From an uncultured Roseicyclus sp. (lineage in GTDB: Bacteria > Pseudomonadota > Alphaproteobacteria > Rhodobacterales > Rhodobacteraceae): a stretch of DNA of 48,663 bases. A model generated the notes under the pieces. The model made no database searches and had not been told where the DNA came from. It saw only the letters and a list, made by a program, of their open reading frames with translations. This document shows, piece after piece, positions 6,700 through 27,303 of the stretch (within the stretch, counting starts at the first letter, position 1; the number at the start of each line of letters is the position of its first letter). The stretch spans positions 1-48,663 of the forward strand of contig CANLXA010000007.1 in the NCBI GenBank assembly GCA_947494975.1, written 5' to 3'. Made by a program: the position numbers and the translations under genes.

Positions 6700-6720
6700 C
6701 TCTTTGGATTAGGATAAAGC

Positions 6721-8767: not shown

Positions 8768-8814
8768 TGCCCCCTGAAAACTGGATCGTTTTCAGCTGGA
8801 ATTTTCCGACTGTC

Positions 8815-9639
8815 TCACGATGACGGGCTGGTGACGCCATCGGGATAATGCATGGCGATCGGGACGTTGTATCCGATCGCGCTGTGGGGTCTGTCCTCGT
8901 TGTAGTGCCTGCGCCAATCCTCCAACTTTTCGCGGGCGTCGGCAAGGCTCATGAACCAGTGCGCGTTCAGACATTCCGCCCTGAGCTTGCTGTTGAACGC
9001 CTCGATGAACCCGTTGTCCGTGGGTTTCCCGGGCCGCGAGAAGTCGAGGGTGACGTCGTTGGCATAGGCCCAGAGATCGAGGTCGCGGGAGATGAACTCG
9101 CTGCCGTTGTCGACTCTGATGGTTCTGGGATAGCCGATCCGTTCACAGACCCGTTCGAGCGTTTGCACGACGTCTTCGCCGCGGTAGGAGAACCTGGGAT
9201 CGGCCGCCGGGCAGAACCGAGAATGGGTATCCACAATGGTCAGGATACGCAGCTTCTTGCCCAGGGCGAGCTGGTCGCGCACGAAGTCCATCGCCCAGAC
9301 ATCGTTCGGCCCGACGGCCTCCTGGCGGTCCTCCCGAAGCTTGGCCTTCACCCGGCGCTTCGGATGCTTGTTCCTAAGCTGCAGGCCCAACTCATTGTAA
9401 ATCCTGCGGGTCTTCTTCATGTTGATCACCCATCCCTCGCGTCGCAGCAGCACGTGGACGCGCCTGTAGCCATAACGCACGCGTGTCTCTGCGATCTCTT
9501 TGATCCGCCTCTCAATGGCAGCCTGGTCCGTCCGCCGGGACTTGTAGTGGTAGGTGGACGTGTCGAAGCGAATGGCCCCACAGGCTCTCCGGATCGACAC
9601 GCCCCAGTCCACGCACATCCCGGTGACGATCTCGCGCAA
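8815..9639 (-). CDS. IS3 transposase OrfB (DDE integrase domain)
   Basis: A 274-residue transposase subunit with an HTH_21-like start (YGYRRVHVLLRREGWVINMK) and an rve/integrase core. The DDE triad can be placed at DVWAMDFVRD (first Asp), IRVDNGSEF (second Asp) and FIEAFNSKLRAECLN (Glu), with the usual IS3 C-terminus (YNEDRPHSAIGY). It appears full length. In this family OrfB is normally made as an OrfAB fusion by -1 frameshifting at the end of orfA; the frames here are offset accordingly, although no textbook A6G slippery site was seen. It cuts and joins the element's inverted repeats. Confidence 0.9.
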   Translation of the reverse strand: MREIVTGMCVDWGVSIRRACGAIRFDTSTYHYKSRRTDQAAIERRIKEIAETRVRYGYRRVHVLLRREGWVINMKKTRRIYNELGLQLRNKHPKRRVKAKLREDRQEAVGPNDVWAMDFVRDQLALGKKLRILTIVDTHSRFCPAADPRFSYRGEDVVQTLERVCERIGYPRTIRVDNGSEFISRDLDLWAYANDVTLDFSRPGKPTDNGFIEAFNSKLRAECLNAHWFMSLADAREKLEDWRRHYNEDRPHSAIGYNVPIAMHYPDGVTSPSS

Positions 9640-10061: not shown

Positions 10062-11147
10062 ATGGCGAATGAGCTGACCTTTGAGGCAATCCGCGGAATA
10101 CAGTCTCGTACCGCGTACTATACTGTGATGGTACCACTAAAAATGGTCCCACGTTTGTTCATTTTCGACGGAGAAGAACTACCAGCAGATCTTCGCGCAC
10201 AACGGGTGTTGTCCCGATCGAGAGTCCCACAAATTGCACAATACCTTTCTGACAATTGGGACAACTACATTCTGTCATCGCTATGCGCCTCGGTCGATGG
10301 AGATCTCACTTTCAAGCCTGCGGCCAAAGATGGCGCACTTCGAAACGTCGGCACTCTCAGCTTTGCCATGCACGCCAGAATTGTTCTGAACGACGGGCAA
10401 CACCGTCGCGCAGCCATTGAGGATGCTATCAAGACCAAGCCTGCGCTTGAGAATGAAACGATCTCGGTCGTCATTTTTGCTGACCGCGGGCTCGAACGCA
10501 GTCAACAGATGTTCGCTGATCTGAATATGAACGCGGTGCGCCCATCGAACTCGCTCAATATTCTGTACGACAAGCGTGACCCGCTTGCCGGGCTGTCAGT
10601 CGAGGTCTTTCGGCGTGTGCCATTCTTGACGAGGTTCCTGGAACTCGAAAAGAAATCGATCTCCAATCGTGCCCCAAAGCTTTACACGCTTTCGAGCCTT
10701 AAGCAGGCCCACACCTGGATGGTCGGCCCTGAGTGCGACCGATTTGGCGAGAACTCCTTCGGTCTGGCAATTCAATTTTGGTCCGAGTTGTATGACGTAA
10801 TGGATGATTGGAAGAGGCTCGATGGGGGCAGCTTAACTGCAGCCGACCTGAGACAGAATACTGTGCACGCGCATGGTGTGCTGCTCCAAGCCTTTGGCGT
10901 TCTTGGCGGCTCGCTCCTGGAAACCTTCCCTGACACGTGGCGCGAAAATCTAAAGCTTCTGTCTTCGTTGGATTGGTCGCGGCGCAATGCCGATCTCTGG
11001 GAAGGTCGAGTAATGAACGATACACGCATGAATGGGCAACGCAGGAGCGTGCTCCTTGGTGCCGCCGTTCTGTTTGAGACGGTAGGATTGCCTTTGGAGC
11101 CACGCATGGAAGCAGCCATTGAAGCACAATCAATGATAGCAGCATGA
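10062..11147 (+). CDS. dndB: DNA sulfur modification protein DndB (regulator, DGQHR domain)
   Basis: A 361-residue protein with the defining DGQHR motif (LNDGQHRRAAIEDA, residues 110-119) and a conserved MFADLNMNAVRPS block at about 148-160. Members of this family are not required for phosphorothioate chemistry but limit its frequency and act as transcriptional regulators of dnd genes. The start is fixed by AGGAGGG five bases upstream. It overlaps dndC by four bases (ATGA), so the two are translationally coupled. The leader is short and lies directly against the IS3 end, so the native promoter may have been replaced or lost. Confidence 0.93.
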   Translation: MANELTFEAIRGIQSRTAYYTVMVPLKMVPRLFIFDGEELPADLRAQRVLSRSRVPQIAQYLSDNWDNYILSSLCASVDGDLTFKPAAKDGALRNVGTLSFAMHARIVLNDGQHRRAAIEDAIKTKPALENETISVVIFADRGLERSQQMFADLNMNAVRPSNSLNILYDKRDPLAGLSVEVFRRVPFLTRFLELEKKSISNRAPKLYTLSSLKQAHTWMVGPECDRFGENSFGLAIQFWSELYDVMDDWKRLDGGSLTAADLRQNTVHAHGVLLQAFGVLGGSLLETFPDTWRENLKLLSSLDWSRRNADLWEGRVMNDTRMNGQRRSVLLGAAVLFETVGLPLEPRMEAAIEAQSMIAA

Positions 11148-12565
11148 CGAAGCCAAGTTCATTAGATGAGCACCCCGGCCCGCTCACATTCGATGCGTTG
11201 GAGGAGCGCGTTCGCGTCGCTTATGGTAGCGACAACCGTCCTTGGGTCATCGGCTACAGCGGCGGAAAGGATTCAACCTGCGCATTGCAGATGATTTGGC
11301 GCGCGTTGAGCGCCCTGCCCGCCGACGAACGAAGAAAACCTATCTATGTTCTGAGTTCTGACACCTTGGTCGAAACGCCTGTCATCGTTGACTACATTGA
11401 CGGCGCGCTTGAACAGATTAACCGGGCAGCTGTCGAACAAGGCATGCCGATTACGGCTCACAAGGTTGTTCCGGATGTAAAGGACAGCTTTTGGGTCAAC
11501 CTCATTGGTCGTGGATATCCAGCCCCATCCCGGCGCTTTAGATGGTGCACGGAGCGACTGAAGATCGACCCGGCCAATGCATTTATCAAAGAACGTGTCG
11601 CCGAGTTTGGCGAGGTCGTCATGGTGCTTGGAGTACGCAGTGCCGAAAGCGCCACACGTGCACAAGTGATGGCGCTCCACCGGCTGAAGGGCGGTTTGTT
11701 CTCACGCCATTCGTCTCTCTTGGGTGCGTTCGTATTCACACCGATTGAAGCCCTCTCCGTCGACGATGTTTGGGACTATGTATTGCAAACGCAGTCTCCA
11801 TGGGGTGCAGACAACCGACAACTACTGAAAATGTACCGAAACGCTCAAGCTGGCGAATGCCCCTTGGTCGTGGATAAGAACACTGAGAGCTGTGGGAACT
11901 CTCGCTTCGGATGCTGGGTCTGTACCGTTGTGACAAAAGACAAAGCGATGGAAGCCATGGTCGACAACGGTGAAGAGTGGCTGGAGCCATTGTTGGATGT
12001 GCGAGATTTTCTCGCCGATACACTCGACCCCGATCGCAAAAAGGTTGTGCGCGACTATCGACGGAGGACGGGTCAAGTCACCGTCAATCGCTCCGGAGAC
12101 GGTCTCATACCAGGGCCCTACAAGCTTGAGTTTCGAAGGGAAGTGTTGACGCGCCTCTTACTCGCGCAAAAGGAAGCGGCGAGTTTGGTAAACGATGAGC
12201 CCCCTCCAACACTGATCCATGAAGTGGAGCTTCATGAGATCCAACATATTTGGAGACGCGAGTCTGGTGATTGGGAAAACACTGTCTACCAAACTGTGCG
12301 CGACGTTCTTGGGCTGGAGCTCACGGCGCCGGATGTCGATGATTTTGAGTTTTCCGCAAGCGACGGGGACATCTTGCGGAGGGTTTGCGAGCAGCACGAC
12401 CTGTCATTGCAGATGATGAGCGAACTCTTGGATGCCGAAAGATCAGTTCAAGGTCTACGACGGAGAGCAAGCATTCACACGTGGATTGCGAGCATCCTTG
12501 AAAAGGAGTGGCGCGGCGAAGAGGAAGTGTTGGCAGATGTACTTGAAGAGGAATCTTTCAAATGA
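11144..12565 (+). CDS. dndC: DndC, PAPS-reductase-like ATP pyrophosphatase of phosphorothioation
   Basis: A 473-residue protein with the PP-loop SGGKDST at residues 39-45, typical of the PAPS reductase/ATP-pyrophosphatase family, and RRFRWCTERLK further on. A cysteine cluster (GECPLV, ESCGNS, FGCWVC) matches the iron-sulfur site of DndC. The enzyme activates the DNA backbone with ATP so that sulfur supplied through DndA can replace a non-bridging oxygen. It overlaps dndB by four bases and dndD by four bases. The length is typical of the family and all key residues are present. Confidence 0.95.
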   Translation: MTKPSSLDEHPGPLTFDALEERVRVAYGSDNRPWVIGYSGGKDSTCALQMIWRALSALPADERRKPIYVLSSDTLVETPVIVDYIDGALEQINRAAVEQGMPITAHKVVPDVKDSFWVNLIGRGYPAPSRRFRWCTERLKIDPANAFIKERVAEFGEVVMVLGVRSAESATRAQVMALHRLKGGLFSRHSSLLGAFVFTPIEALSVDDVWDYVLQTQSPWGADNRQLLKMYRNAQAGECPLVVDKNTESCGNSRFGCWVCTVVTKDKAMEAMVDNGEEWLEPLLDVRDFLADTLDPDRKKVVRDYRRRTGQVTVNRSGDGLIPGPYKLEFRREVLTRLLLAQKEAASLVNDEPPPTLIHEVELHEIQHIWRRESGDWENTVYQTVRDVLGLELTAPDVDDFEFSASDGDILRRVCEQHDLSLQMMSELLDAERSVQGLRRRASIHTWIASILEKEWRGEEEVLADVLEEESFK

Positions 12566-14490
12566 GGTTCCTCGAAATTGTTCTTGAAAACGTCGGCCTT
12601 TATTCCGGTCGCCATGCGTTTGATCTCACGACCAGACCCGGTGATGGAAGCAACGTCGTTACCATCTTGGGACACAATGGAGGCGGAAAGACCACTTTCT
12701 TGGACGCCATTAGGTTGGCATTATATGGCCGCAAGGCACTCGGGCCCAGAACGGCACAATCAACATATGACGATCACCTCCTCCGGAAGATCAGCGCCAC
12801 CGCATCCTCGCGCGAAGCATCCATAACGCTGTCATTTGTAAGGGGTGAAGGCGGTCAAGAAATCGAGTACTCGGTCAAGAGAGCTTGGGCCTCACGCGGG
12901 AAGTCCGTTGTCGAGTCACTTGATCTAGTCCGTGAAGGTCGCCCAATCTCAGACTTAGAGCGCCCCGATTATGCGCATTATGTTGAAGAGCTCGTCCCTC
13001 CAGGTCTCTCACAACTTTTCTTTTTTGATGGGGAGAAGATTCAGGAGATCGCCGATGACGAAGGAAGCGTCGGTCTCCGGGACGCCATCCGATCGCTTCT
13101 CGGGTTGGACATCATAGATCAGCTTCAAACCGACCTTACGGTTTACACCAGCCGGCGAGTAGATCGACAAACCTTGGATGTTTTTGAGCGTCTGCTCGGG
13201 GAAAAGGCAGATTTGGAGGCTGAGTTGATGCGCCAACAGGAGGCGCGAGCAGAACTCCAAAGCAGCTGCGATCAAGCTGCGCGGCGTGTTGAACGGGCTG
13301 AAACCGCATATCGGGGCGAAGGCGGCGAGCACGCACGATCTCGCGAAGAGGTGCTAATCCAGATCCGATCAGCTGAGGACGAATATGCAGACCTCGGGCT
13401 TCAATTGAAGCGGATGGCAAACGATCTCCTTCCGCTTTCCTTGGCTCCGACCACAGTTCAACTGCTTCAACAGGCCGCTACGCGCACACTGGAGGCCGGA
13501 GGTTTCACTGCAATCAAACGGTTCATCGACACTTTTGAGCAGAGAGAGAGAGTTGGTGAGATTTGGACTGAGCAACACTTTGAAGAACTACGGGCTGGCA
13601 TAGAAACTGAAACATCTGGTTCCGCCCGATACATCTTTGCAGAGCCTGATTGGATCCTGCGCCGGATCGATGCCCTCTCCTCTGAACGCAAGACCGACGC
13701 AGCACAGCTTGCGAAACGCTTCGACAAAGCGCGTGAACGTAGAGCGAAACTCAAACTTGCGCTCGAAGGGTTCGATTCCGGACAGGCCGAAGCAGCACTT
13801 ACGAACCTCAAGGAAGCGGAGCGCAAACTCGGTGCATTAGACCGTGATCTACAGCTGTCCGATGAAGGATTGGAACGTTTGCTGCGAGAGCTTGAAGCGA
13901 TCGAGCGGCGGTTCAAGTCCGAGGAAACTGCTCTGAAGCGACTTGCACAGGAGTCGCGCGGCGCCGATCTGGCGGTTCGTGCTCAGGGTGCACTTGCGAT
14001 TTTTGGGGCCGAGTTGTTGAAGGATCGCGTGGTCCGTTTGGAAACCGAGTTCGTCCAGTGTTTCAATCGCCTAAGCAGGAAAAAGACGCTGGTCTCCAGC
14101 GTTCGAATTGATCCAGCTGATTTTAGTGTGACTTTGATTGGTAGCGATGGCGTAGAAATCGAAAAGAACGGTCTTTCAGCCGGTGAGCGACAGATTTACG
14201 CGATTTCGATGCTTTGGGCATTGGGAAAGACGAGCGGTCGCCAACTGCCCATCGTGATCGACACACCTTTTTCGCGGCTCGATCTAAGCCACAGAAAGGC
14301 GATCGTTCAGGACTATCTGCCATCTGCCAGCCATCAGGTGATTTTGCTGTGCACGGACACAGAGATGACACCTGCGCTGGCCGATCATCTATCGCCACAC
14401 ATAGCTCGCACATACCGACTTGAAGCCACGTCTGAGGCCAGAAGCACGACGTTGTTCCCTGTGAGCAGCCTGTCCGAGGAGCTTGTCTGA
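12562..14490 (+). CDS. dndD: DndD, SMC/RecF-like ATPase of phosphorothioation
   Basis: A 642-residue ABC-type ATPase. The Walker A is GHNGGGKTT (37-45), followed by FLDAIRLALYGRK. LFFFDGEKIQEIAD at about 153-166 is the DndD family hallmark. A long coiled coil spans about 200-480. The signature LSAGERQ lies near 536-542 and the Walker B/D-loop PIVIDTPFSRLD shortly after. No clear CxxC zinc hook is visible. In Dnd systems it hydrolyses ATP to open or nick the target so that DndC/DndE can act. It overlaps dndC by four bases, and its last base is the first base of dndE. Confidence 0.95.
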   Translation: MRFLEIVLENVGLYSGRHAFDLTTRPGDGSNVVTILGHNGGGKTTFLDAIRLALYGRKALGPRTAQSTYDDHLLRKISATASSREASITLSFVRGEGGQEIEYSVKRAWASRGKSVVESLDLVREGRPISDLERPDYAHYVEELVPPGLSQLFFFDGEKIQEIADDEGSVGLRDAIRSLLGLDIIDQLQTDLTVYTSRRVDRQTLDVFERLLGEKADLEAELMRQQEARAELQSSCDQAARRVERAETAYRGEGGEHARSREEVLIQIRSAEDEYADLGLQLKRMANDLLPLSLAPTTVQLLQQAATRTLEAGGFTAIKRFIDTFEQRERVGEIWTEQHFEELRAGIETETSGSARYIFAEPDWILRRIDALSSERKTDAAQLAKRFDKARERRAKLKLALEGFDSGQAEAALTNLKEAERKLGALDRDLQLSDEGLERLLRELEAIERRFKSEETALKRLAQESRGADLAVRAQGALAIFGAELLKDRVVRLETEFVQCFNRLSRKKTLVSSVRIDPADFSVTLIGSDGVEIEKNGLSAGERQIYAISMLWALGKTSGRQLPIVIDTPFSRLDLSHRKAIVQDYLPSASHQVILLCTDTEMTPALADHLSPHIARTYRLEATSEARSTTLFPVSSLSEELV

Positions 14491-14867
14491 TGCATTTCAC
14501 GAAACTTCGGGTGTCGTCTGAGACGACGGGTCGGCTTCGGATGTTGCAGCAACGATCGGGACTCACCCCGAACCTATTGTGCCGTATGGGACTAATGTCG
14601 TCTTTGGAATCGGGCTCGGTTAGCGAAATGGAACCCCCGGAAGAAAACGGGCAAGAGTTCAACGCCTACACATTATTTGGGTCCGACCAACCCATATTTC
14701 TATCGATGCTTGCCTTGGTTGAGACCCAGAAGGGCTCCGAGGACTTTGATGAAGAGACGCTTCTGAGGCAGTTGAGATGTCATATCGACCGTGGCGTTGG
14801 TCAAATCGCTATCCGGATAGTCTCACCGAGCGATGCCGCTCGCCTTTTAGCTGGGCAGGCAGCGTGA
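14490..14867 (+). CDS. dndE: DndE, small DNA-binding phosphorothioation protein
   Basis: A 125-residue protein beginning MHFTKLRVSSETTGRLRMLQ, the typical DndE N-terminus, followed by RSGLTPNLLCRMGLMSSLE. DndE is a ribbon-helix-helix-like nicked-DNA-binding or nicking component that works with DndC and DndD. The start codon shares one base with the dndD stop (TGATG) and its stop overlaps the dndA GTG start (GTGA), which fixes both ends. Length and order agree with known dnd operons. Confidence 0.93.
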   Translation: MHFTKLRVSSETTGRLRMLQQRSGLTPNLLCRMGLMSSLESGSVSEMEPPEENGQEFNAYTLFGSDQPIFLSMLALVETQKGSEDFDEETLLRQLRCHIDRGVGQIAIRIVSPSDAARLLAGQAA

Positions 14868-16027
14868 CACAGGCTCCCATTTATCTTGATCACAATGCTT
14901 CCACGCCAATGGACGCCGGTGTCATCGATCAAGTGGTTTGGGCAATGCGCGAGTTGCCGGGCAATCCATCCGCAGTCGATCACGTTGATGGCGCTGCCGC
15001 GGCGAATGCTGTTGAAACGGCCCGTGAAAAAGTAGCCTCAGGGATTGGCGCGCGCCCGGCGGACATTGTATTCGTGAGCGGAGCGACTGAGGCAAACAAT
15101 CTTGCCATCCAGGGCGCGTTGCGCGCTCAAAGTAAGAAAGGCCGCACCCGCCTGATTACTGTGGCCACGGAGCACCCTTCTGTTCTTACTCCGGTGGCGG
15201 CCGCGCATGAGTGTATTGTCCTGTCCGTAGACGAGGAAGGGCGGGTCGATCTTGGCCAACTTGAGGAGAAGATCACCAGCGAGACAGCGCTCGTCACTTG
15301 TATGGCTGCAAACAATGAAACGGGAGTGCGCCACCCAATCACGGAGATTGGAAAGCTTTGCGAACAACACGGCGTTCTCTTTCACACGGATTTGACGCAA
15401 CTGATCGCATACGGTGAGATCGACGTTCTACAATCAGGCATCCACCTCGCCAGCCTTTCGGGACACAAGATGTACGGCCCAAAGGGGGTCGGCGCCCTCT
15501 ATTGTCGGCGGCGGCGACCGCATGTGAACCTGGAACCGATCCTTCTCGGGGGCGGTCATGAGCAGGGACTACGTTCGGGGACCTTGAACACGCCAGGAAT
15601 TGTGGGTTTGGGAGCGGCCTTTGATTTGCGACGCGAGCGCCTTCAAAGCGCAGGCGAGATTGGAGGGCTGAGAGACGCGTTGGAAAAAAGGCTGGTCGAA
15701 GACGCGGGCGCTCTCGTTAATGGTGGCGGAGCTCCGCGGTTACCCAATGCCCTGAATGTGAGTATTCCCTCAGTTGAGCCGCTTGCACTTATGCGGCGAC
15801 TATCAAGTGCCATCACATTTTCAAGCTCAAGTGCGTGCTCAACAAAGTCTGTCGAGGACTCGCACGTTCTGGAGGCCATGTATGGCGTCGGAACGGCGAG
15901 AACACGCGGTGCATTCCGATTGGGGTTAGGTTTTGGAACTACGCGAAAGGAAATTGAGCGCTCTGGCAATCTGCTCGTTGAGGCAGTGAGCGAAATCCGA
16001 AAAGCGCGATTGGGGAGTGCAGCTTAG
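14864..16027 (+). CDS. dndA: DndA cysteine desulfurase
   Basis: A 387-residue PLP-dependent cysteine desulfurase of the NifS/IscS class. Visible motifs are YLDHNASTPMD at the N-terminus, VSGATEANNLAIQG, the PLP-lysine region LSGHKMYGPKGVGALY, and the loop SSSACSTK carrying the catalytic cysteine. It releases sulfur from L-cysteine and passes it to DndC. I use GTG at 14864, which overlaps the dndE stop by four bases and puts YLDHNA at the normal position; longer in-frame starts would add a non-conserved tail inside dndE. In many genomes dndA is divergent or absent; here it is the last gene of the operon. Confidence 0.92.
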   Translation: MTQAPIYLDHNASTPMDAGVIDQVVWAMRELPGNPSAVDHVDGAAAANAVETAREKVASGIGARPADIVFVSGATEANNLAIQGALRAQSKKGRTRLITVATEHPSVLTPVAAAHECIVLSVDEEGRVDLGQLEEKITSETALVTCMAANNETGVRHPITEIGKLCEQHGVLFHTDLTQLIAYGEIDVLQSGIHLASLSGHKMYGPKGVGALYCRRRRPHVNLEPILLGGGHEQGLRSGTLNTPGIVGLGAAFDLRRERLQSAGEIGGLRDALEKRLVEDAGALVNGGGAPRLPNALNVSIPSVEPLALMRRLSSAITFSSSSACSTKSVEDSHVLEAMYGVGTARTRGAFRLGLGFGTTRKEIERSGNLLVEAVSEIRKARLGSAA

Positions 16028-16029
16028 GT

Positions 16030-17874
16030 TTAATAGGTTAAGGCGAGAACCCGCAGCGCCTGCGTGCGCAACTCGTTCTGGCGGGAAGTGGCTTGTTCGG
16101 CACCCCAAGTTTCGTTCTCAGCAAGCTGCGTGTTGAGCGACAGGCGCGATCCCTTGAGGACGGGTTTCTTTTGGTCGAACGGTTTATTCGCTGCGCGGTC
16201 GTTCTCGGTAGCGCTGAGCAATGTGAGGTTGCCGAGTTTGTGCAGGTGAGGAAGCATTTCCACTCCCGCGTCCTCGGGTTTCTGTGGGCTGATATGTTCC
16301 AATGTCATCGAACGAATTTCCATGGAAATATCAGGCGACATGACCTTGGGCCGTCCATTCGCGGGCCCTTTGTACCAAGCAGACATGACCTCCAGAAGGG
16401 CTAGCAAGTACTTGAGTTCCTTCTTGTTCTTTTCGTATTCAAGTCCGTCCAACTGGCGTGTGAGCGCGTCGTCCGTCGCTGATTTTTCCAGCAGGCCATT
16501 TAAGACTGCTTCCAGCTCTTTAAGGTGGAATTGATCCGGTTCTGTTCGAAGGGTCGTGATGACCGGGCCAATTTTGCGGTCGTACTCGCCAATACGTGCT
16601 CGCGCCAACACGCCATAACGGAAGGCAAATCTGTCCACCACGCAAAGAAGCTGCTCCAACTCTTCGCTCTCAAGTTTTTTTGCCGCACAGACCAGTGGTA
16701 ATATCCAATGTTGCTTCAGTTCACCGAGCGTGAAGGCTAAACGAGTCGACATAACTCTCGTGAGGTTGAGACCTCCGCCAGGAACATCGCCGTCCGAAAG
16801 CGCCTTCATCTCCGACATATCTTTTTGGAGAGTTTGAACTCGGCCAAGCAGTGATCTTGCCTTATCAACGCCTAAAGGCTTGGCGTCTTGCAACTCCTCG
16901 AAATGCAGGGCCTCGAACTCAGCGGACGTTCTAGCCGTATTGAATCTCTTCCCAGTCCGAGCCTGATAGCTAAGTTTAAGAAATTCGTCCGGATCGTCTG
17001 AAATGCCTGCAATCTGTTTCCATGCGGCGGCCAACGCTTCCCGCTCGGACTGCTCCAGTCGCTGTTCAGTGCGTTCCATGGTGGTTGCTCGCAGGAGGTC
17101 ACAGTCGCTGACAGGAAGGCCGCGGTTGTTCAAGACCCGAAAGATCAGGCTCGCATGTTGAGGTGCCTTCGCCTCAATGTGGACAACCTCCCAATCCTCG
17201 AGAAGGCTCACATAAAATTCGTTGAGAGCTTTGAATTCGCCGGCTTTCGAGCCTGTATCGTTGCGTCGCTCCGAAAGCATCGCAAAACAGGCCTCGTAGG
17301 CCTCTTTTAGCAACTCATGCGACGTTAGGATCGGCTCTACATCATCGCCACGCAATAGCTGCTTAAACACTGCATCGTCTGCATCGTTCAAAGTCAGCGG
17401 ATAGACATCCTTGGTTTCCAAAAAAACCAGGTCGCTGCTTGTTATGAACCGTGTGCTCAAGGTTGCTGCCATCGTCGTCAGCGCGGATGACTCTTCTGGC
17501 AATTCAGCTGCCAGAGAAGCTGAGGCATCCAAACAGTGCTGTCTGAGGCTCGCAACAAAGAGCAAAAAGGTAGCAAACCTCTGTTGCCCATCGATGACGT
17601 CTCGTGCTGGGCGTACCATCCCACGAGGACTTCGAGGCGAAGTTACAACTGAGCCAAAGAAGTGACGCTCTCTCTCTCCTTCCATCCGCCGGTCCCAACA
17701 CCTGCGCACATCATCCAAAAAGGCGTCGATTTGCTCACTACTCCATTCAAATGCACGCTGATACGTCGGTACGCGGAACACAGTCATGCCGCCCAACAAC
17801 GCGGATACAGTAGTTGGCGTTGCCCGCTGGCAAAGAAGATCCTGCACTTGCTCCATGCTAAAGCTAACCGCCAA
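16030..17874 (-). CDS. DUF262-DUF1524 nuclease (GmrSD/SspE-like), dnd-linked restriction
   Basis: A 614-residue protein with an N-terminal DUF262 domain (FRVPTYQRAFEWS at 33-45, HFFGSVVTS, and the nucleotide-binding DVIDGQQRF at 92-100) and a C-terminal DUF1524 HNH-type nuclease domain from about 520 (LEHISPQ, then HKLGNLTLL, N...NKPFDQKK). This architecture occurs in the type IV enzyme GmrSD and in SspE, the phosphorothioate-dependent nuclease of the Ssp system. Its stop is two bases from the dndA stop on the opposite strand. It is the last gene of a five-gene minus-strand operon and overlaps its upstream neighbour by 11 bases. I infer it to be the DNA-cutting arm of the Dnd defence. Confidence 0.88.
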   Translation of the reverse strand: MAVSFSMEQVQDLLCQRATPTTVSALLGGMTVFRVPTYQRAFEWSSEQIDAFLDDVRRCWDRRMEGERERHFFGSVVTSPRSPRGMVRPARDVIDGQQRFATFLLFVASLRQHCLDASASLAAELPEESSALTTMAATLSTRFITSSDLVFLETKDVYPLTLNDADDAVFKQLLRGDDVEPILTSHELLKEAYEACFAMLSERRNDTGSKAGEFKALNEFYVSLLEDWEVVHIEAKAPQHASLIFRVLNNRGLPVSDCDLLRATTMERTEQRLEQSEREALAAAWKQIAGISDDPDEFLKLSYQARTGKRFNTARTSAEFEALHFEELQDAKPLGVDKARSLLGRVQTLQKDMSEMKALSDGDVPGGGLNLTRVMSTRLAFTLGELKQHWILPLVCAAKKLESEELEQLLCVVDRFAFRYGVLARARIGEYDRKIGPVITTLRTEPDQFHLKELEAVLNGLLEKSATDDALTRQLDGLEYEKNKKELKYLLALLEVMSAWYKGPANGRPKVMSPDISMEIRSMTLEHISPQKPEDAGVEMLPHLHKLGNLTLLSATENDRAANKPFDQKKPVLKGSRLSLNTQLAENETWGAEQATSRQNELRTQALRVLALTY

Positions 17875-18385
17875 TTTCTTTCGCTAAAATGTCTTGGTAC
17901 CGCATTAAAAAATTCGCTGGGTCGGTGGGGCGCGCACCCATCTTGGATCGAAGCAATTCAAATCCGCCAGCGGCATAGAGATTTAATGAATGCATCCCCG
18001 CCGCGGACAAACGCGTCGGCGAGGCTACTTGAAGAAGCCTTGAAATCGACCGCTCCGCCTGACGTTCTGAGTACTCCTCAGAAGACAGCGCAGTAACTTC
18101 AGCATCTACCAGCAATCCGGCAATATACTCTCGGTAGGGTTCATACTCGTTGGGGTAGGTTTGTATAAAAACCGTCCCGTCCAGCATCTCATCGCTACCC
18201 ATTCGTTTCGACGCCAAGCCCAACATGAGGCCCGCGTAGTAGGCGTCGAACAAAATAAGAGACCCTCGAGCAACGTCCGAAGACCGTGTACTGCTAAACA
18301 TCCTTTGACCCGAGTAGTCAAAATAGCTTCGAGCACTCTCGTGGAGAACAAAACCTCTGGCTCGCGGCTCTTGCTCGGAGGTCAT
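17864..18385 (-). CDS. 173-residue protein of a dnd-linked operon, unknown function
   Basis: A mostly helical protein starting MTSEQEPRARGFVLHESARS, with no membrane span, signal peptide or motif I recognise. It starts at an ATG overlapping the upstream ATPase stop by four bases and ends 11 bases inside the DUF262 gene, so translation is coupled on both sides. Its position between an SMC-like ATPase and a nuclease suggests an adaptor or accessory subunit, comparable to the small partners of other ATPase-nuclease complexes. That role is inferred from context only. Confidence 0.75.
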   Translation of the reverse strand: MTSEQEPRARGFVLHESARSYFDYSGQRMFSSTRSSDVARGSLILFDAYYAGLMLGLASKRMGSDEMLDGTVFIQTYPNEYEPYREYIAGLLVDAEVTALSSEEYSERQAERSISRLLQVASPTRLSAAGMHSLNLYAAGGFELLRSKMGARPTDPANFLMRYQDILAKEIGG

Positions 18386-20313
18386 GCAGATACTCCGTTG
18401 CTTTGAAACTGGAAAAAGTGTTCTTTGTCATCGTCAATAATTACAGAACCGTCGTTTCGACTAATTGACGCTGTAACAAATTGAGTATCGGCTCTGCTTT
18501 CAAATGCGTCCGCAAATCCCTCTCTTTCGCTTGAAATTACGAAGACGATTAATTGCTCGAAAATCTTCGGGATCAGCGCGCCAACATTGCTCCGTAGATC
18601 CAAATCAAGGGAAACGGCGGGTGAGTCTACGATGAAGGGCAGACGAGCGGGCGCCTCTGCAAGGAGAGCGGTCAGGAAAGCATAGCAGACTGCTAGTTTC
18701 TGACCCTCACTAGCGCCATCTTTTGGAAGGTCCTCTTCGTTTACAAGGTGCAGCCGTCCCTCGATCTTTGACACTCGAATGATCTCATTGTCCAAAATGC
18801 GCGAGAGTTGTGCGTTGGTTCGGTCTCTGACGAACGACCGCAGTCTCTTCTTTGCAAGCGCGCGCGCCTGGCCTGCTGCCTCTATCAGTGTGTCAGCTGC
18901 AGCAAAGTACTGATTATTTGCTCTTGCCGTCTTGAACGCCTTTTCGCGCTTCCTCGTGACGGCCTCGCACGCTGGAAGATTGATCTTCCAATCCACGTCA
19001 TCGAGCGATGGAGGTTCCTCTGTTAGAAACTGAAGAGAGAGGTTCTTACGGGTCCGTTCCTCAACCAGTTTTTCCTTCTCTGAAGTGAGCTGACTGATTT
19101 CATCGATACCAGCCTGGGCTTTCTCGATATCCAACCGGCTTCTCTCTTGACCGACAGAGGTGTACCGATCTTCTGCCTCGCTTAGTTCAAGAACAACATC
19201 CGAGAGCGGTCTTCGATCGGCTTGGTCCGTGAGTTTGTATCGAATGTCATTTATCACGCTTACCTGCTCGTCACCAAGATAGTCGTCGGCGTGCGATAAT
19301 ATGTGTTGACGTTTCTCATCATCTAGCTCTTCGCCACAGATGCAGTTTGGTTTTTGTGCCAAGAGTTCAAAGAAGGACTTTGACGATCGAGGGAGATTTC
19401 GAGTTTTGAGCGCCGCGCTGAGTGCCTTCAGGCGGGTTTCAACGAACGGATGGACACTTAAAGGGGAGCGAAAGCTTGAAATGGCGTCCAGTGAGAATGC
19501 TGAAATGTCGCTCGCGGCTTTCTTGCTTCGATCTTCAATATCCTGTTGGCGCTCTCTAAACTCATCAGCTTCAAACCCCAATTGCCGACAGCGCTCATCA
19601 ATAGCCGTAATTCGATCTCTTATTTGTCCAAGGCTCCGGTCTAATCCTTCTTTCTCATTTCGCAGTCTGACGAGTATTTTGTTGGCATCGTTGTACTCGC
19701 GTTCGCGTTGGTCGACGGCTGACTGCTCGGTTGCCGACGAGACATCTCGGTTCCGGGATTTTCGATCGGCTTTGAGCGAATTAATCTCTCTTATCAAATC
19801 CGCAAATGCGTCGGTGCGGTATAGGGCCTCAATCGCCCTGTCAGCAACGGACGGGCCATCCTTGAGCATGTCTTTGGCCAGCTCTCCATCGAACACATAG
19901 AGCTCAATGCTTCGCTTTAGCGCATCTGCCATAAGCGGGTCCACTGCGGCCAGTAGATGACCCCTTTTTTTGCCTTCTTGAACGGTGGTCGTGTAGAAGA
20001 AATGCCGATCCATCTCGAAGTCAAACTCAATCCGGATAGAAACCCTTTCGTCCTTGATCAACAGATTAAGCGCGAAGAAAGCGCTCTTAACGGTCCGGTC
20101 AGCTTGTAGCGCTGATATTGAGAGGGACTTGTCCAGTTCGCCAGATAAGGCAGACCGCAAAAGCGCCATTGTTGTCGTTTTACCGGTGCCGTTCGGCATC
20201 TGCAGAAGCGCATGCCTATACTTGTCGGGCTTCAGCTCAATATGAGCATCGCGCAAGTATCCACGAAGTCCCTTTGCATCCCAACCAAGGAGGAGAACAT
20301 TACTTGTCGTCAC
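18382..20313 (-). CDS. SMC/DndD-like coiled-coil ATPase of the restriction operon
   Basis: A 643-residue ABC-type ATPase distinct from DndD. The Walker A is QMPNGTGKTTT (38-48). ELYVFDGELAKDML near 150 parallels the FFFDGEKI block of DndD. A long coiled coil follows, broken at mid-protein by a cysteine pair (KPNCICGEEL, a C-x-C rather than a standard CxxC zinc hook). The signature region is GASEGQKLAVCYAF, and the Walker B is LPFIVDSPAVSLDLDLR, followed by VFVISSERE. It resembles SMC-like ATPases of phage-defence complexes. It overlaps the genes on both sides (14 and 4 bases). I infer that it forms a DNA-sensing or translocating complex with the helicase and nuclease. Confidence 0.85.
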   Translation of the reverse strand: MTTSNVLLLGWDAKGLRGYLRDAHIELKPDKYRHALLQMPNGTGKTTTMALLRSALSGELDKSLSISALQADRTVKSAFFALNLLIKDERVSIRIEFDFEMDRHFFYTTTVQEGKKRGHLLAAVDPLMADALKRSIELYVFDGELAKDMLKDGPSVADRAIEALYRTDAFADLIREINSLKADRKSRNRDVSSATEQSAVDQREREYNDANKILVRLRNEKEGLDRSLGQIRDRITAIDERCRQLGFEADEFRERQQDIEDRSKKAASDISAFSLDAISSFRSPLSVHPFVETRLKALSAALKTRNLPRSSKSFFELLAQKPNCICGEELDDEKRQHILSHADDYLGDEQVSVINDIRYKLTDQADRRPLSDVVLELSEAEDRYTSVGQERSRLDIEKAQAGIDEISQLTSEKEKLVEERTRKNLSLQFLTEEPPSLDDVDWKINLPACEAVTRKREKAFKTARANNQYFAAADTLIEAAGQARALAKKRLRSFVRDRTNAQLSRILDNEIIRVSKIEGRLHLVNEEDLPKDGASEGQKLAVCYAFLTALLAEAPARLPFIVDSPAVSLDLDLRSNVGALIPKIFEQLIVFVISSEREGFADAFESRADTQFVTASISRNDGSVIIDDDKEHFFQFQSNGVSA

Positions 20314-20506
20314 TCAAAATGTCCTCCTCAAGTATCACGTCGATTGCGCTTTGGATTCTGTCCCGTGGGAGTCTCTGTTCGAGAGTTCCTCTCAATAGGC
20401 GCTCAATGGTATTTTGAACTGAACTGACGTTAGAGGCCTGTTTCGCTGCCTCTTCGATGGCACTTGAGATTTCCGCGCCGGCACTACGTGCTGTGGAATT
20501 GGTCAA
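20300..20506 (-). CDS. 68-residue helical protein of the restriction operon
   Basis: A small soluble protein (MTNSTARSAGAEISSAIEEA..., ending DVILEEDILSDDK), Ala/Ser-rich at the N-terminus with an amphipathic helix in the second half. No family is recognised. It is supported as a gene by its four-base overlap with the helicase stop upstream and its 14-base overlap with the ATPase start downstream; it fills the space between two large genes exactly. It is probably a subunit or stabiliser of the ATPase or helicase. The role is unknown. Confidence 0.7.
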   Translation of the reverse strand: MTNSTARSAGAEISSAIEEAAKQASNVSSVQNTIERLLRGTLEQRLPRDRIQSAIDVILEEDILSDDK

Positions 20507-22413
20507 TTCTCTTCCCTCCTGGTCGTGCTCAGCGCCTTAAGCCATTCATAGCGGTTTGCATCGGTTGTGTCGCTAACCTCTGTATCCCCCAGATCCACAA
20601 AATCTAGGAGATGCGCGCGTTTCGCTTTGTTGGCAGGATCGGTGCGCAAACACCGCCCGAGTCGTTGAATCGTCTCCAACTTCGCCCGTGCCGAGGCAAA
20701 CAGCACGATATTCTTAACCGAACTGATGTCTATGCCCTCGGAGAGCCGGTGGCAGCTAACCAGGCAATCTAGCCTACCGTCCGAGAAGTCCGTCAAGCGC
20801 GCAGACTCGTCTCCTTCGTAGTAGGTCCCAAACACGATGCCGGCATCCATCAATAGGCTTTGCACCTGCTCGCCATAAGACCGCGTCTCAACAAATATGA
20901 GCGTGCGATTGCAAATCTCGGGATGGGCATCCAGATAGTTCTCGAACGGATGTAATTTCTCCGCTGACACCTTTCGAACTCGTGCGATGTCTCTGTAGAG
21001 AGCGTCATCTGACACGAGGTCTCCCGCTGCCTTTCTTCCATGATGGCGTTTTATGACATTGCGGATTTCTGCGCGGTCTTCGTCAGAAAGCGAGTACTCC
21101 AAGGCGGTGTAGTCAAACTCACAGAGTATGCCGCGTCGAATTGCGTCTTCGACCTCGAACCTGAAGACGACTGGTCCGATCTCCGACTCGATGAAGGCGT
21201 TCCCGTCTTCGTCGTATTCTCTGTCAGGCGTTGCGCTCAGACCCAGTCGAAACGCAAGCGGAGAAACCTTACCGGAAAGCGCCTCGACTTGCGATGCAGA
21301 CCCGAAACTGTGGACCTCGTCGCACACAATGAGAGACGACTTCTGAGGATCAGGGGAACCAGGTAGATACTCGGAGAGGAAGTGATGGGAAACCAACAAG
21401 AGCCGCTTGCCGCGGCTGGCCAAGAACCGGGCGCCTTCCCGGTTCTTTCCAAACTGCCGGAACACGCGATACTCGCTATTGGCGACAAGCTCGCGAAACC
21501 ATTGCTCAAGTAAGTCGTTCCCCCGCATAGTAACAACGACCGTGTCCACGGCACCGGAGGATGTCAATTCGTCGATTATCCGCAGGGCAGTCCGTGTCTT
21601 TCCAGTGCCGGTCGCCATCTCAAGAACGCCATGGCCGTGCGTCAGGAAACGGCGGACTGCCTCGTCTTGATGGCGCCAGCGCCGGTCGACATTTTGTCCC
21701 CGACGGCCGCTTTGCCCAGAACGATAGAACTGAGCGATGTTTCTACGAAGTGCTTCGGGCACGTCAAAGCACTGCACATTAGGGTCTGCATTGCTCCAAA
21801 TCCGATCAAAACGTTCGCGGTGTGACTTCACGCGCGAAGCGTCGCGTTGGTCATCCCAGCTAACAAATATGTCGAGACTTTCGAAGTTGCGTCCGGCCTT
21901 CTCCGTCTCATTCTGGCTCCCGTGGAACACGACCACGTCGCCGGTCTCGTCCCGAAAAATCCCGATCTTGGGATGGTAGTCTCCGCTGAGTTTTCCCGTC
22001 GGAATTGCAATGCGAATGGTGAGTAGCTCCTCGGCAATCATGTAGGACAGGGTCTGAACGGGCTTGGAACTCGCACATTTCTCAAGCTCCTCGACCTCCT
22101 GCCGAAGCGCCTCGAGAAGTAGATCATTGTGCATGGCATCTGCGCCCTCTTTGAGCGCCGCCCAGTCTTCCGGTTTGAGCATCGGGCTCGTGACCAAGCG
22201 CATGGAACCTCCATTCTCGGCGAAACCGGCAATACCCGATGCCACGCGCTGGAGCCAGGTTGACGTGAAAAAGCCCACGCCTCGGTCGTAGGAGACAGAA
22301 TGACTGAGGCATGGGTTCATTAAGACCTCATCGATGTCATCCGACGAGGTGTCGACGTCTGATGGAAACGTGAGAGATTTTAAAGACTTGGGCATTCTTC
22401 GATCGTGCAACAT
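20503..22413 (-). CDS. Superfamily 2 helicase with N-terminal phospholipase-D-like nuclease domain
   Basis: A 636-residue protein. Residues 1-230 are PLD-like, with HPKIGIFRD (His147, Lys149) followed by VFHGSQNETEKAGRNFESLD, one HKD-type active-site half. Residues 245-636 are a DEAD/H helicase: EMATGTGKTRTA (motif I, 265-276), LIVCDEVHSFGS (motif II, 361-372), LSATPDRE (motif III), TLIFVETRSYG, LSEGIDISSVKNIVLF (motif V) and TIQRLGRCLRTD (motif VI). It heads the convergent operon and overlaps the next gene by four bases. A second ATG at 22395 is a possible start. The fusion of a PLD nuclease with a helicase is common in defence loci and fits unwinding and cutting of unmodified DNA. Confidence 0.9.
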   Translation of the reverse strand: MLHDRRMPKSLKSLTFPSDVDTSSDDIDEVLMNPCLSHSVSYDRGVGFFTSTWLQRVASGIAGFAENGGSMRLVTSPMLKPEDWAALKEGADAMHNDLLLEALRQEVEELEKCASSKPVQTLSYMIAEELLTIRIAIPTGKLSGDYHPKIGIFRDETGDVVVFHGSQNETEKAGRNFESLDIFVSWDDQRDASRVKSHRERFDRIWSNADPNVQCFDVPEALRRNIAQFYRSGQSGRRGQNVDRRWRHQDEAVRRFLTHGHGVLEMATGTGKTRTALRIIDELTSSGAVDTVVVTMRGNDLLEQWFRELVANSEYRVFRQFGKNREGARFLASRGKRLLLVSHHFLSEYLPGSPDPQKSSLIVCDEVHSFGSASQVEALSGKVSPLAFRLGLSATPDREYDEDGNAFIESEIGPVVFRFEVEDAIRRGILCEFDYTALEYSLSDEDRAEIRNVIKRHHGRKAAGDLVSDDALYRDIARVRKVSAEKLHPFENYLDAHPEICNRTLIFVETRSYGEQVQSLLMDAGIVFGTYYEGDESARLTDFSDGRLDCLVSCHRLSEGIDISSVKNIVLFASARAKLETIQRLGRCLRTDPANKAKRAHLLDFVDLGDTEVSDTTDANRYEWLKALSTTRREEN

Positions 22414-22427
22414 ACCGGCACAATATG

Positions 22428-22538
22428 GAAGACACCCAAACCTGGCGCCCTCATCGGGCGCTCAATATGCGCCCACCAGTTCCAGAAACTATATTAGAGA
22501 ATGCCCAAATCAGTAGCCCAGAAGCAGGGGGCTGGACA
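22428..22538 (+). pseudogene. IS3 transposase C-terminal scrap
   Basis: The forward frame reads WRPHRALNMRPPVPETILEN, then AQISSPEAGG, which matches the last 35 residues of the IS3 OrfB at 32500-33781 (TRPHQALNMRPPVPETLLEK, then PSISGPETGG). It ends at GGACA (22534-22538), the outer end of that IS family's inverted repeat. Only this 3' tip is left, just upstream of the helicase operon start. The remaining 22540-22791 shows no gene I can support. Confidence 0.8.
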
Positions 22539-22791
22539 CTTAAGCGCTACGCATTGCTCAAACCCACGGTTGATCGGAAACTCCCTACTCGGCTGGCATC
22601 GAGTGTAGGTCTGGAACGTAACCTAGCTGAGTTTCTTTGGTAGCAAGTCCGGAATGCTATGGCCTTGAGCCAATTCACCTGATTGGAGTGGCCGCACCAG
22701 TTTCGCGTGCGAGAACGAGCCGGAAAGTGCTTCTCCCCTCTCGGCGTAGATGTGTTGCCTTGCCCACGACCCCAAAACAAACGTCAAAGTT

Positions 22792-23394
22792 TCAGGAGCA
22801 CGCCTTGCCAGGTGATTTTTTCTGACCCAATAGATCGGGCCGCGTCTCGAGATACTCTAAGTCAAAGTCATGTTTCGCAGCCAAATCCCTAAGCTCGTCC
22901 AATGGCACCTCGTAAATCGCTCTTCCCGGATCGGCGGGGCCCAGACGAAGCGTCACGTACGCAATGCCGTTTGGTACTAGGAGCGACGCAATCGAACTTA
23001 CGGCCTCATCTCGCTCTTATGTAGGAACGTGCATCCAAACCGCACTGAGAACCACAACGCTGAACCTCTGCGGTGCGTCTTTGACTTGCCTCAGTTCGGG
23101 AAGCGCATCGCTTCGCCACTTAACAGATGTTCCTTAATGCGCTTGCTGCGCTATTTTCAGCATCGCATTTGAGGGCTCGACCGCGACGACGCGGTGACCC
23201 TCTGCAGCAAGCCAGGCAGAGTCTCGGCCCGTTCCGGCACCGACATCAAGAATATCCAGCGTTTGACCAGTGAACCGTTCGGTCGATATCTTAGCCAGCC
23301 CGGGATGCGCCGCCGCGGCCGAAATACCTTCGTAGCTGTCCGCCAAGTCAAGAGCATGGCGATCGTAATATATAGATGCTGTGGGCTCTGTCAT
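22792..23394 (-). pseudogene. Class I SAM-dependent methyltransferase with two internal TAA codons
   Basis: The minus-strand frame from ATG 23394 encodes MTEPTASIYYDRHALDLADS, the SAM-binding motif ILDVGAGTGRDSAWLA, then VVAVEPSNAMLKIAQQAH and a TAA (23134-23136). It continues in the same frame through LPELRQVKDAPQRFSVVVLS and AVWMHVPT to a second TAA (23017-23019), and then ERDEAVSSIASLLVPNGIAY through to a TGA at 22792. The whole 201-codon frame is otherwise intact without a frameshift, so only point mutations have killed it. Small-molecule or tRNA methylation is equally possible; the substrate is unknown. Confidence 0.85.
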
Positions 23395-23481
23395 CGAACT
23401 CGCAACTTTGGACCAGTCTGTTTGTATGCCTGTTGCGATCAGCAATCCAAGGCTTGTTAGACTCGCGATGGCAAGCATTGC

Positions 23482-23907
23482 TTAGAAGGAGCGACGTACA
23501 ACCAGAGGCTTGTTGTACCAGCGATCGCCCTCGGCAGAAACAAAACTCTCTCCGGCTCGAGACTTCAACCAGGCAAGCGTTTGCTCCGTCACATAACGGA
23601 GCCTCTGTATCACGAGGAACAAAGCCGCATTGCCAGCAGTCGCCATGAGAAGCAGAGCGATTTGAAGGAGGGGAGGCCCTTCAACCCTAGAGACACCAAA
23701 CCAAAGCCCACCAGTATGCGTCATCGAGATCAGCGGGATCTACCACATCTGATGATTGAGCGCGGGAAAGGTTTCGTGATTTTGCTCGAAGGCCGCGAGG
23801 TTGAGTTTTTCGGTCTCTGTCTGCTCTGCTGTCAATTTCTCGGTCTCTTTAATAAGCTGGCCCTGACGAAGGTCGGAGGCGCTAGCGAGATATCTGCTCG
23901 ACCTCGG
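23482..23907 (-). pseudogene. Fragment of a small membrane or coiled-coil protein with an internal TAG
   Basis: A minus-strand frame open from 23907 reads LRQGQLIKETEKLTAEQTET, then EKLNLAAFEQNHETFPALNH, then a TAG (23740-23742). It continues in frame with a hydrophobic segment (LLQIALLLMATAGNAALFLV) and a charged tail ending VVRRSF. The charged helix plus single span suggest a membrane-tethered coiled-coil protein. No family was recognised and its beginning cannot be located. It sits directly upstream of the methyltransferase pseudogene, on the same strand. Confidence 0.5.
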
Positions 23908-23930
23908 CTACTTGGGAAAGGGATCAATCA

Positions 23931-24524
23931 GTGACCGTATTCTTTCACGGCAATTTCGGGTTGAACAGAGAGCACATGTCTCTCCTTCTCGCGGAGGGTC
24001 TTGAACATCCGGAATTCAGAGACAAGGACCTCGCAAAGCAATTCGGCTATGGGGCGCCGTTTGCCTCGGCATACCGATCCTGGCTTCACAAAGCCGGTAT
24101 AGTGGAGCTGCGCTTTCCAATCACTCTGACGGAACTTGGTGCGGTGGTACAGCGGATGGACCCGAAGTTTGACAAGGAACCCACTCTTTGGCTCTTGCAC
24201 CAAGAATTGGTGACGGATCCCGAGCGCGCCGAAGCTTGGAATTTCTTCATGGGTGAATTTCGCGCAGCACATCCGCAGTTCTCGAAGGAGGAGCTAAGAG
24301 CAGCATTAGCTATGAAGCTGAGCGCCCACGATGCGAAGCACTTTGGTCCAAAGTCCAAGATGATACCGATCATCGCTCGAAAGCTTTTAGAATGCTATAC
24401 GTCTGCGCAAGCTCTGGGAGGGCTGGGGCTTCTAAATCAACGCGACAGCGGATGGTACGAGTTTTCCGAACCCGTTACTTCTCAGGCATTTAGTTCCGTT
24501 GCTGAACTTGAAGTGGCCTATTGA
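23931..24524 (+). CDS. DUF4007-family protein, possible DNA-binding partner of the defence island
   Basis: A 197-residue protein from a GTG at 23931 with GGGAAAGGGA upstream. It matches the DUF4007 pattern: FFHGNFGLNREHMSLLLAEG (compare FxGHxTFxxRxxWLxKG), a winged-helix-like middle (FASAYRSWLHKAGIVELRF), LTELG, and the diagnostic TLWLLHQELVTDPERAEAWN. Family members are usually nearer 280-300 residues, so this copy may be shortened. DUF4007 genes are often found beside PAPS-reductase/Dnd-type defence genes, and here one lies 1.5 kb from the dnd-linked helicase operon, divergent from pseudogenes. Its molecular role is unknown. Confidence 0.75.
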   Translation: MTVFFHGNFGLNREHMSLLLAEGLEHPEFRDKDLAKQFGYGAPFASAYRSWLHKAGIVELRFPITLTELGAVVQRMDPKFDKEPTLWLLHQELVTDPERAEAWNFFMGEFRAAHPQFSKEELRAALAMKLSAHDAKHFGPKSKMIPIIARKLLECYTSAQALGGLGLLNQRDSGWYEFSEPVTSQAFSSVAELEVAY

Positions 24525-25420: not shown

Positions 25421-26242
25421 TCATCCATTGCTGATAATCAACTCACCAACGCGTTTTCCTTTGGCTTGTGCAACAGTATAGCTGGTTTAAACCGCTATCC
25501 GCTTGAACGCTGCGAACACCTCCCGCACGCCGGGCGTATCGTTCAGTGACAAAATGAAACGCCCATTTATGCGTTCCAATATGTCGGCCAGCTCCTCAAA
25601 CTCGGAGCGCTTGAACTCTCCTAGCCCGTAAAGGTCTCCCGAGCCCCAGTAAGGCGGATCGAGGTAGAACAGCGTGGTTTCAGAATCATAGCGACGGATT
25701 GCTTCCTGGTACGGCAGGGCTTCGATTGTGACGCGTTGAAGCCGCTGGTGAATCTTCTCAATGTACCGCAGAGCTTTGTCCGCTTGAAAGAGCGCCGCGC
25801 CTGCACCTCGTTGAACACCAAACGCCCTACGGGTGAGACGTCCACCAAAGGCACACCGCTGCAGGAAAAAGAATCTCGCAGCCCGTTCGATATCGGTCAG
25901 GTCATGGGGAACAAGGCGTTTCAGGCGTTCAAAGTCGTCACGACTAGATATTTTGAAGCGTAGCTCCTCCATCAGCGCGGCCGGATGACGGCGAGCGACA
26001 CGAAACAGTGTCGCGACGTCCTTGTTCAGATCATTGATGACTTCAGAGCTTGGCTTAGACGTACGACGGAAGAAGACCCCGCCCATGCCGCAAAACGGCT
26101 CTACGTAGCTAGAATGTGGGACCTGATCAATTTCTTGGCAAAGACGCTTCGCCAGCAGCCGTTTCCCACCACAATAGCGGACAGCCGGTACAATTGGATC
26201 GACGGGTTTCATGGGGAAATGCTTAGTCATTTTAGTCTCCAT
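25421..26242 (-). pseudogene. D12-class DNA adenine methyltransferase with a premature TAA near the C-terminus
   Basis: The frame encodes AVRYCGGKRLLAKRL, the SAM motif SYVEPFCGMGGVFFRR, the catalytic motif LFYLDPPYWGSGD, and FILSLNDTPGVREVFAAFKR: a D12/Dam-type N6-adenine methylase of about 251 residues up to a TAA at 25487-25489. In the same frame beyond the TAA comes TSYTVAQAKGKRVGELIISN, then G and TGA (25421-25423), which is the normal end of this family. So a single nonsense change, probably GAA to TAA, removes 22 codons. The catalytic part (25487-26242) is complete, so some activity might remain. The stop lies inside an 8-bp palindrome, GTTTAAAC. It is likely an orphan methylase of the mobile region that follows. 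Confidence 0.85.
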
Positions 26243-26435
26243 TTGCGTTGAATGAAGACAGCGTGAAGGAACTTTAAGTCGTTGTATCCGTGCGCTATTT
26301 TCTGGTACGTTCCGCTAAGGAGTCAGTTGGGTATTGATGAGCACGGATTCTTTTTTCGCTTGCCGGTTCACTTTTCCGATTATCCAACCTCACATGTGGC
26401 GCCAGGATCACAGTTTCGCATTGTCAGTGCTATGA

Positions 26436-27284: not shown

Positions 27285-27303
27285 GGCGGCAGCTTAGGCA
27301 ATC

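Follow-up and report, generated by a model that had tools for sequence, protein, structure and literature searches.

A contig of 48,663 nucleotides from an uncultured Roseicyclus sp. (GenBank assembly GCA_947494975.1, contig CANLXA010000007.1, positions 1–48,663 of the forward strand; the whole stretch is hereafter the window) carries the DNA phosphorothioate (PT) modification genes dndBCDEA and, converging on them, a five-gene operon that joins pbeABCD to orf5, a gene whose product is, by sequence, a full-length homologue of the DUF262–DUF1524 nickase DndI. We put at roughly 60% the probability that this is a PT-based anti-phage locus, in which one PT mark serves two effector arms, Pbe and the DndI-like Orf5. 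Directly established are the identity and order of the genes, the preservation of the catalytic motifs in PbeA, PbeC and Orf5, the likeness of the fold predicted for PbeD to that of DndE, the recurrence of the arrangement in other loci and the co-inheritance of its genes.

The dndB, dndC, dndD, dndE and dndA genes are open frames on the + strand at 10062–16027 with strong PADLOC and NCBIfam matches, as an earlier preliminary description of this DNA had held. DndA is the weakest call: it scores 352 of 480 bits, under the NCBIfam DndA cut-off, and the PADLOC DndA model barely beats that of SspA; the true start of dndA probably lies near the end of dndE. The second operon runs on the − strand from 22413 down to 16030, and its helicase, 68-residue protein, ATPase, 173-residue protein and DUF262–DUF1524 protein, named in the same description, were all found as open frames, so that none of the ten genes of the two operons is interrupted in the window. 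Adjoining frames overlap by 4 bases (pbeA and the 68-residue gene), 14 bases (the 68-residue gene and pbeC) and 4 bases (pbeC and pbeD), and the pbeD–orf5 junction is an 11-base overlap or a 7-base gap by the start codon chosen, Orf5 having 614 residues from a TTG or 608 from an ATG at 17856. The reported absence of dndFGH was upheld for dndF: the DptF family had no match in the whole genome of the window (4.55 Mb, 9 contigs), and the same model matched dptF in the Priestia control plasmid W01; DndG and DndH were not searched for.

The first four genes of the − strand operon are pbeABCD in the published order, pbeB by position only. The identity with Pbe, left open earlier, is thus settled by PADLOC, gene order, the CxC motif and the predicted fold of PbeD. 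PbeA contains the Pfam domains ResIII (2.7e-20) and Helicase_C (5.8e-10); its phospholipase D part had no Pfam match at 0.01, and residues 25–210 match an NCBIfam phospholipase-D anti-phage model at 4e-12, far below the cut-off of that model. The HKD-type residues H147, K149 and N168, the Walker A motif and the DEVH motif of PbeA are invariant in 8/8 homologues, and the CxC motif of PbeC is present in the window and invariant in all 12 proteins aligned. Against the Protein Data Bank (PDB), the PbeC and PbeA profiles matched distant ATPases and helicases only. PbeD is, on its predicted fold, a DndE cognate, DndE being the one clear match of that fold; this likeness rests on the predicted fold because comparison by sequence gave a probability of 2%. 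A viral structure library yielded no match at E 0.001, and the PbeD profile met one chance-level match (0.3) among PDB sequences.

The small protein in the pbeB place has homologues in the loci L043, L044 and L141. Of 10 proteins from the PbeB place that were tested, 4 score above the cut-off of Sp-CxC, a different family, the window protein not among them, and none matches Sp-DndD; the idea that PbeB is a detached DndC tail is therefore unsupported, and comparison of PbeB with DndC tails by hhalign gave 0.3% (the PbeB set held some wrong small open reading frames (ORFs)). The C-terminal tail of the window DndC (residues 409–445, window 12368–12478) resembles Pfam Sp-DndD at 2.1e-4, below the cut-off, and Sp-DndD matches the tails of 12/17 DndC proteins at 0.01. 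The PADLOC PbeB model matches the same DndC residues. A further observation concerns automatic annotation: because the PADLOC PbeC models score the window DndD far above the window PbeC (2e-189 versus 2e-18), the automatic DndD and PbeC labels may be swapped.

The fifth protein, Orf5, consists of GmrSD_N and GmrSD_C (DUF262 and DUF1524) domains. Its best solved structure, matched over query residues 14–586, is PDB entry 9JFL, which is DndI (Tang 2024, PMC11662687); SspE matches Orf5 only in part, both in PADLOC and in the PDB, where two short parts match. The sequence stretch of 9JFL in turn matches PADLOC 'Orf5' at 1.6e-273, so that the PADLOC Orf5 models cover DndI; the origin of that name was not found in the literature searched. 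The DGQQR motif and the nuclease residues E-H, N and N are invariant in 13/13 aligned relatives, and the P-T-Y-Q of Orf5 aligns with the Y25-type PT-sensing region of DndI, a motif present with Y or F in all 13. In an Orf5 tree of 16 rows, DndI and the window Orf5 fall within one clade of 12 rows (100/100), a placement that is tentative because the 9JFL and L054 branches are long. Outside the clade lie L127–L129 and L054, the last a locus with dnd and pbe genes whose Orf5 is distant and not adjacent. Among plasmids, Orf5 was matched in 106 records, just one of which (Methylobacterium) covers at least 80% of the query.

Recurrence of the pairing was assessed in 31 loci that have a PbeC of the window type and in which pbeD could be read. 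These were the window itself, five loci on plasmids, 17 of 80 genome loci (totals of genome loci being at least those given), L123 and 7 further loci. Left out were L124 and L126, from the same genomes as L053 and L049, and L051, whose contig ends in pbeC; the near-copies L034/L045 and L035/L036/L055 were kept. In 10 of the 31, Orf5 comes immediately after pbeD and shares its strand; these are the window, L032 (Methylobacterium), L043 (Celeribacter), L044 (Roseobacter), L049 (Thalassospira), L050 (Eilatimonas), and L123, L140, L141 and L143, which are ranked in the class or family of the window. The five named genera are Alphaproteobacteria. The closest named loci among the matches listed, from Celeribacter naphthalenivorans and an uncultured Roseobacter, have PbeA proteins 72–73% identical to that of the window, a kinship that points to a roseobacter-type alphaproteobacterium as the most probable host. 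The dnd genes are in view in 26/31 Pbe loci and in 9/10 of those with Orf5, the exception being L141, a 5.3-kb contig that ends inside Orf5. Across these nine, the dnd and pbe genes are convergent in five (window, L032, L043, L044 and L123), in tandem in two (L049 and L140) and divergent in two (L050 and L143).

Among loci whose PbeA is more distant, L059, from a Chloroflexota bin, encodes in succession pbeA, a CxC ATPase, a 151-residue ORF, an ORF resembling a helix-turn-helix protein by eye, and orf5, faced by dnd genes, and in L094 and L112 Orf5 lies on the opposite strand, kilobases from pbeA. The PbeC profile is rare, being found in 3/385 genomes of a class sample and 6/295 of a family sample (window included). 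Where Orf5 is missing, there is no single rule for the gene in fifth place: ten ORFs near pbeD in nine such loci comprised Mrr_cat (L092), STAND (L058), DUF6602 (L033) and CBS (L145) proteins, three ORFs without a match and, in L116, L146 and L048, a DndB-like protein (Pfam DndB, over the cut-off) encoded less than 1 kb from pbeD.

Co-inheritance was examined on a PbeA tree of 29 of the 31 loci (L036 and L058 left out) with 5 outgroups. The 10 Orf5 loci require three changes on this tree, against a shuffled mean of 8.8 and with 0/500 shuffles as low, so that Orf5 was gained or lost at least three times. Eight of them, including the window, form one PbeA clade (95/96), and L050 and L143 sit among relatives without Orf5. 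The Orf5 tree requires two changes to account for its 8 Pbe-linked rows, and Pbe-linked Orf5 may have a single origin. When L140 and L141 are set aside, leaving the 8 loci whose genes are complete, the distances of Orf5 correlate with those of PbeA (r 0.93), PbeC (0.92) and PbeD (0.89). Together, these results indicate that dnd, pbe and orf5 travel together; they do not demonstrate binding of Orf5 to Pbe.

These data allow us to propose how the locus might act. DndACDE, the published writers of PT, would, under the control of DndB, introduce sulfur into the backbone of host DNA at a subset of the occurrences of a short motif, and both effector arms, encoded in the one convergent operon, would read the resulting mark. 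In one arm, a scanning complex of PbeC and PbeD, that is, of a CxC ABC ATPase and a DndE-like DNA binder, would join the HKD-helicase PbeA and the small PbeB in blocking replication of unmarked DNA; archaeal PbeABCD exerts a PT-dependent replication block on unmarked virus with no visible cleavage and is harmless without PT (PMC6459918). In the other arm, the DUF262 domain of Orf5 would hydrolyse nucleotide on PT DNA and then release that DNA, and the HNH domain would nick DNA without PT. DndI is described as a nickase that acts with IscS–DndBCDE, nicks unmarked DNA, releases marked DNA, is restrained by PT and is harmful to cells that lack it (PMC11662687). The combination would parallel the Salmonella dndFGH–dndI operon, with PbeABCD replacing DndFGH. 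PT modification, a single transcript, the activities of both arms and their additive action are what we infer.

Several observations weigh against one mark serving two arms. The 68-residue protein had no hidden Markov model match, including PADLOC, Pfam and Sp-CxC, and no PbeB-type model matched it. The P-x-[YF]-Q motif is also present in the homologues of L127–L129, whose fetched stretches contain no dnd genes, and the Pbe-linked Orf5 of L049 has F in place of the PT-sensing tyrosine, so that the tyrosine is no proof of PT reading. Distances of DndC (0.84), DndD (0.91) and DndA (0.85) track those of Orf5 almost as well as the pbe genes do, and the correlation therefore does not link Orf5 specifically to Pbe. 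Finally, 21/31 Pbe loci have no Orf5 directly after pbeD, meaning that Pbe does not need it, and DndI is active without Pbe (PMC11662687). These last two points also tell against a closer union, which we consider unlikely, in which PbeABCD of this clade would have Orf5 as its nuclease subunit, receiving non-PT DNA from the scanning PbeCD, with neither Orf5 nor PbeABCD working alone. Such a union would fit the tight packing of orf5 with pbeD, the presence of Orf5 in all 8 PbeA rows of the clade of the window and its correlation with PbeA; a separate cutter would also bring a new activity, since viral DNA is not cut by archaeal Pbe.

The same two domains, a PADLOC type IV match at 5.9e-13 and the relatives L127–L129 could instead speak for Orf5 as an independent type IV (GmrSD/BrxU-like) enzyme directed at modified-base phages and not reading PT; the recurrent place of Orf5 in pbe operons and the grouping with DndI, from which L127–L129 and L054 are excluded (with the long branches mentioned above), make this improbable. 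Least credible, at only a slight chance, is that the cluster is decaying and no longer functional: a neighbouring methyltransferase-type frame carries four stops, and in the relative L140 both dndA and orf5 are broken into two frames (5746–6932 and 11627–13482), but in the window every dnd, pbe and orf5 frame is open and the catalytic residues of PbeA, PbeC and Orf5 are kept.

A larger assembly would add the product of the nearby DUF4007 gene, whose presence, noted previously, stands at 57 bits in Pfam against a cut-off of 27. Four close copies of this gene were found, each adjoining a pbe operon, and its profile had no match at 0.01 among PDB sequences. The DUF4007/SspB-like protein is a possible sixth component. 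As a joint reading, we hold it rather doubtful that six proteins would form one PT restriction machine in which PbeCD scans, PbeA translocates, Orf5 nicks and the DUF4007/SspB-like protein adds DNA recognition, as DndG or SspB does in other systems. If true, Pbe of this clade would cut invading DNA, unlike archaeal Pbe, and components of Pbe, Dnd and Ssp could replace one another in a single complex.

Table 1. Genes of the dnd–pbe–orf5 locus and its flank, in window coordinates
Feature	Coordinates	Strand	Evidence
dndB, DGQHR/ParB-like regulator, 361 aa	10062..11147	+	PADLOC DndB 1.8e-129; NCBIfam TIGR03233 over cut-off
dndC, sulfurtransferase, 473 aa	11144..12565	+	PADLOC DndC 4.8e-189; TIGR03183 over cut-off
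dndD, ABC ATPase, 642 aa	12562..14490	+	TIGR03185 over cut-off; PADLOC DndD 1.3e-184, PbeC 2.3e-189
dndE, 125 aa	14490..14867	+	PADLOC DndE 7.5e-41; Pfam PF08870; TIGR03184 over cut-off
dndA, cysteine desulfurase (ORF)	14777..16027	+	PADLOC DndA 9.4e-123, SspA 1.7e-120
orf5, DndI-like DUF262–DUF1524 protein	16030..17874	−	PADLOC Orf5 2.3e-291; PDB 9jfl 1.3e-42
pbeD, 173 aa, DndE-like predicted fold	17864..18385	−	
pbeC, CxC-type ABC ATPase, 643 aa, GTG start	18382..20313	−	CxC motif; PADLOC PbeC 1.9e-18
small protein in pbeB place, 68 aa, TTG start	20300..20506	−	position and size
pbeA, SF2 helicase with fused HKD/PLD-type part, 636 aa	20503..22413	−	PADLOC PbeA 8.2e-194
broken methyltransferase-type gene	22795..23907	−	homology to intact L044 protein
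short DUF4007/SspB-like winged-helix protein, 197 aa	23931..24524	+	Pfam DUF4007; PADLOC SspB 3.9e-11

The surroundings of the locus were also annotated. The broken methyltransferase-type frame is 64% identical to the intact protein of L044, and its in-frame stops (TAG, TAA) come without a frameshift, which is unusual for a decayed gene. Upstream of dndB lies an IS110-type transposase (7929–8945), and consecutive genes at 25487–29388 for a D12-class adenine methylase, a replication-relaxation protein and an ATPase that weakly matches TrwB/HerA suggest a mobile element next to the defence genes. Elsewhere in the window are a full-length Trans44 small RNA (Rfam RF02649, 199.5 bits; 286–551), a 505-residue protein (4408–5925) that matches a caspase in PADLOC weakly (1.4e-7) and nothing in Pfam, and a 4,097-residue protein (35889–48182) that contains DUF4214 and 15 stretches of RTX calcium-binding repeats.

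The preliminary description had proposed a hybrid or a new class of PT-based defence. The hybrid part stands, with Pbe and a DndI-like gene in one operon; a new class of restriction half is rejected because the proteins match described modules, four being PbeABCD in the described order and the fifth grouping with DndI, a nickase already linked to PT. The modification module, the Pbe arm and the nickase family are thus all known, and it is the pairing of Pbe and DndI in one operon that looks new: no description of a pbeABCD–dndI operon was found in the full-text literature searched, which held few subscription papers and no preprints or supplementary tables. The only paper among those searched with both 'dndI' and 'pbeABCD' was Tang 2024 (PMC11662687), which, in the text covered, names Pbe once, in its introduction. 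That work counts 61 genomes with dndBCD and dndI and no dndFGH, some of which may be pbeABCD–dndI loci; cotranscription with dndFGH is accordingly a feature of the Salmonella locus and no part of what defines DndI. The occurrence of dndFGH–dndI and pbeABCD–dndI suggests that operons for PT restriction can take up dndI as a portable accessory. Because DndI is toxic and Pbe silent without PT, their pairing would combine two opposite self-recognition logics on one mark. Cleavage by PbeABCD is itself disputed, archaeal work having seen none (PMC6459918) and a later analysis arguing for cutting, and natural operons of pbeABCD with an HNH nickase permit a direct test.

Among known systems, DndCDEA–PbeABCD of Haloterrigena jeotgali A29 (Xiong 2019, PMC6459918) has, like the window, four pbe genes in the same order beside dnd modification genes, with PbeB and PbeD of similar size; the window differs in having dndB, convergent operons and orf5 joined to pbeABCD (our archaeal protein comparison used Halorubrum proteins rather than those of H. 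jeotgali). The closest counterpart of Orf5 in IscS–DndBCDE–DndI of Salmonella enterica Cerro 87 (Tang 2024, PMC11662687) is DndI, likewise a DUF262–DUF1524 protein of about 600 residues with DGQQR and HNH, homologous over its length and also beside dndBCDE; there dndI is cotranscribed with dndFGH, whereas orf5 belongs to the pbeABCD operon. For the cysteine desulfurase, the Salmonella system has IscS and the window a linked dndA. A sponge archaeon paper makes mention of dndB-like genes with DUF262 and DUF1524 domains. SspABCD–SspE shares the two domains of Orf5 (in SspE), a relative of the DUF4007 gene (SspB) and SspA, as which the window DndA also scores; it differs in that Orf5 matches SspE in part only and in that the neighbours here are dnd and pbe genes. 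When 20 window proteins were scanned with PADLOC, SspC had no match and SspD matched DndC alone, weakly. The CxC ABC-ATPase–DndE systems (Rakesh 2024, PMC10853773) contain, as does the window, an HKD-SF2 helicase, a small protein, a CxC ATPase and a DndE cognate; GmrSD, DUF262 and DndI have 0 occurrences in the main text of that paper (its supplementary data being outside the scope), which describes these systems in tandem with Dnd systems and together with various nucleases.

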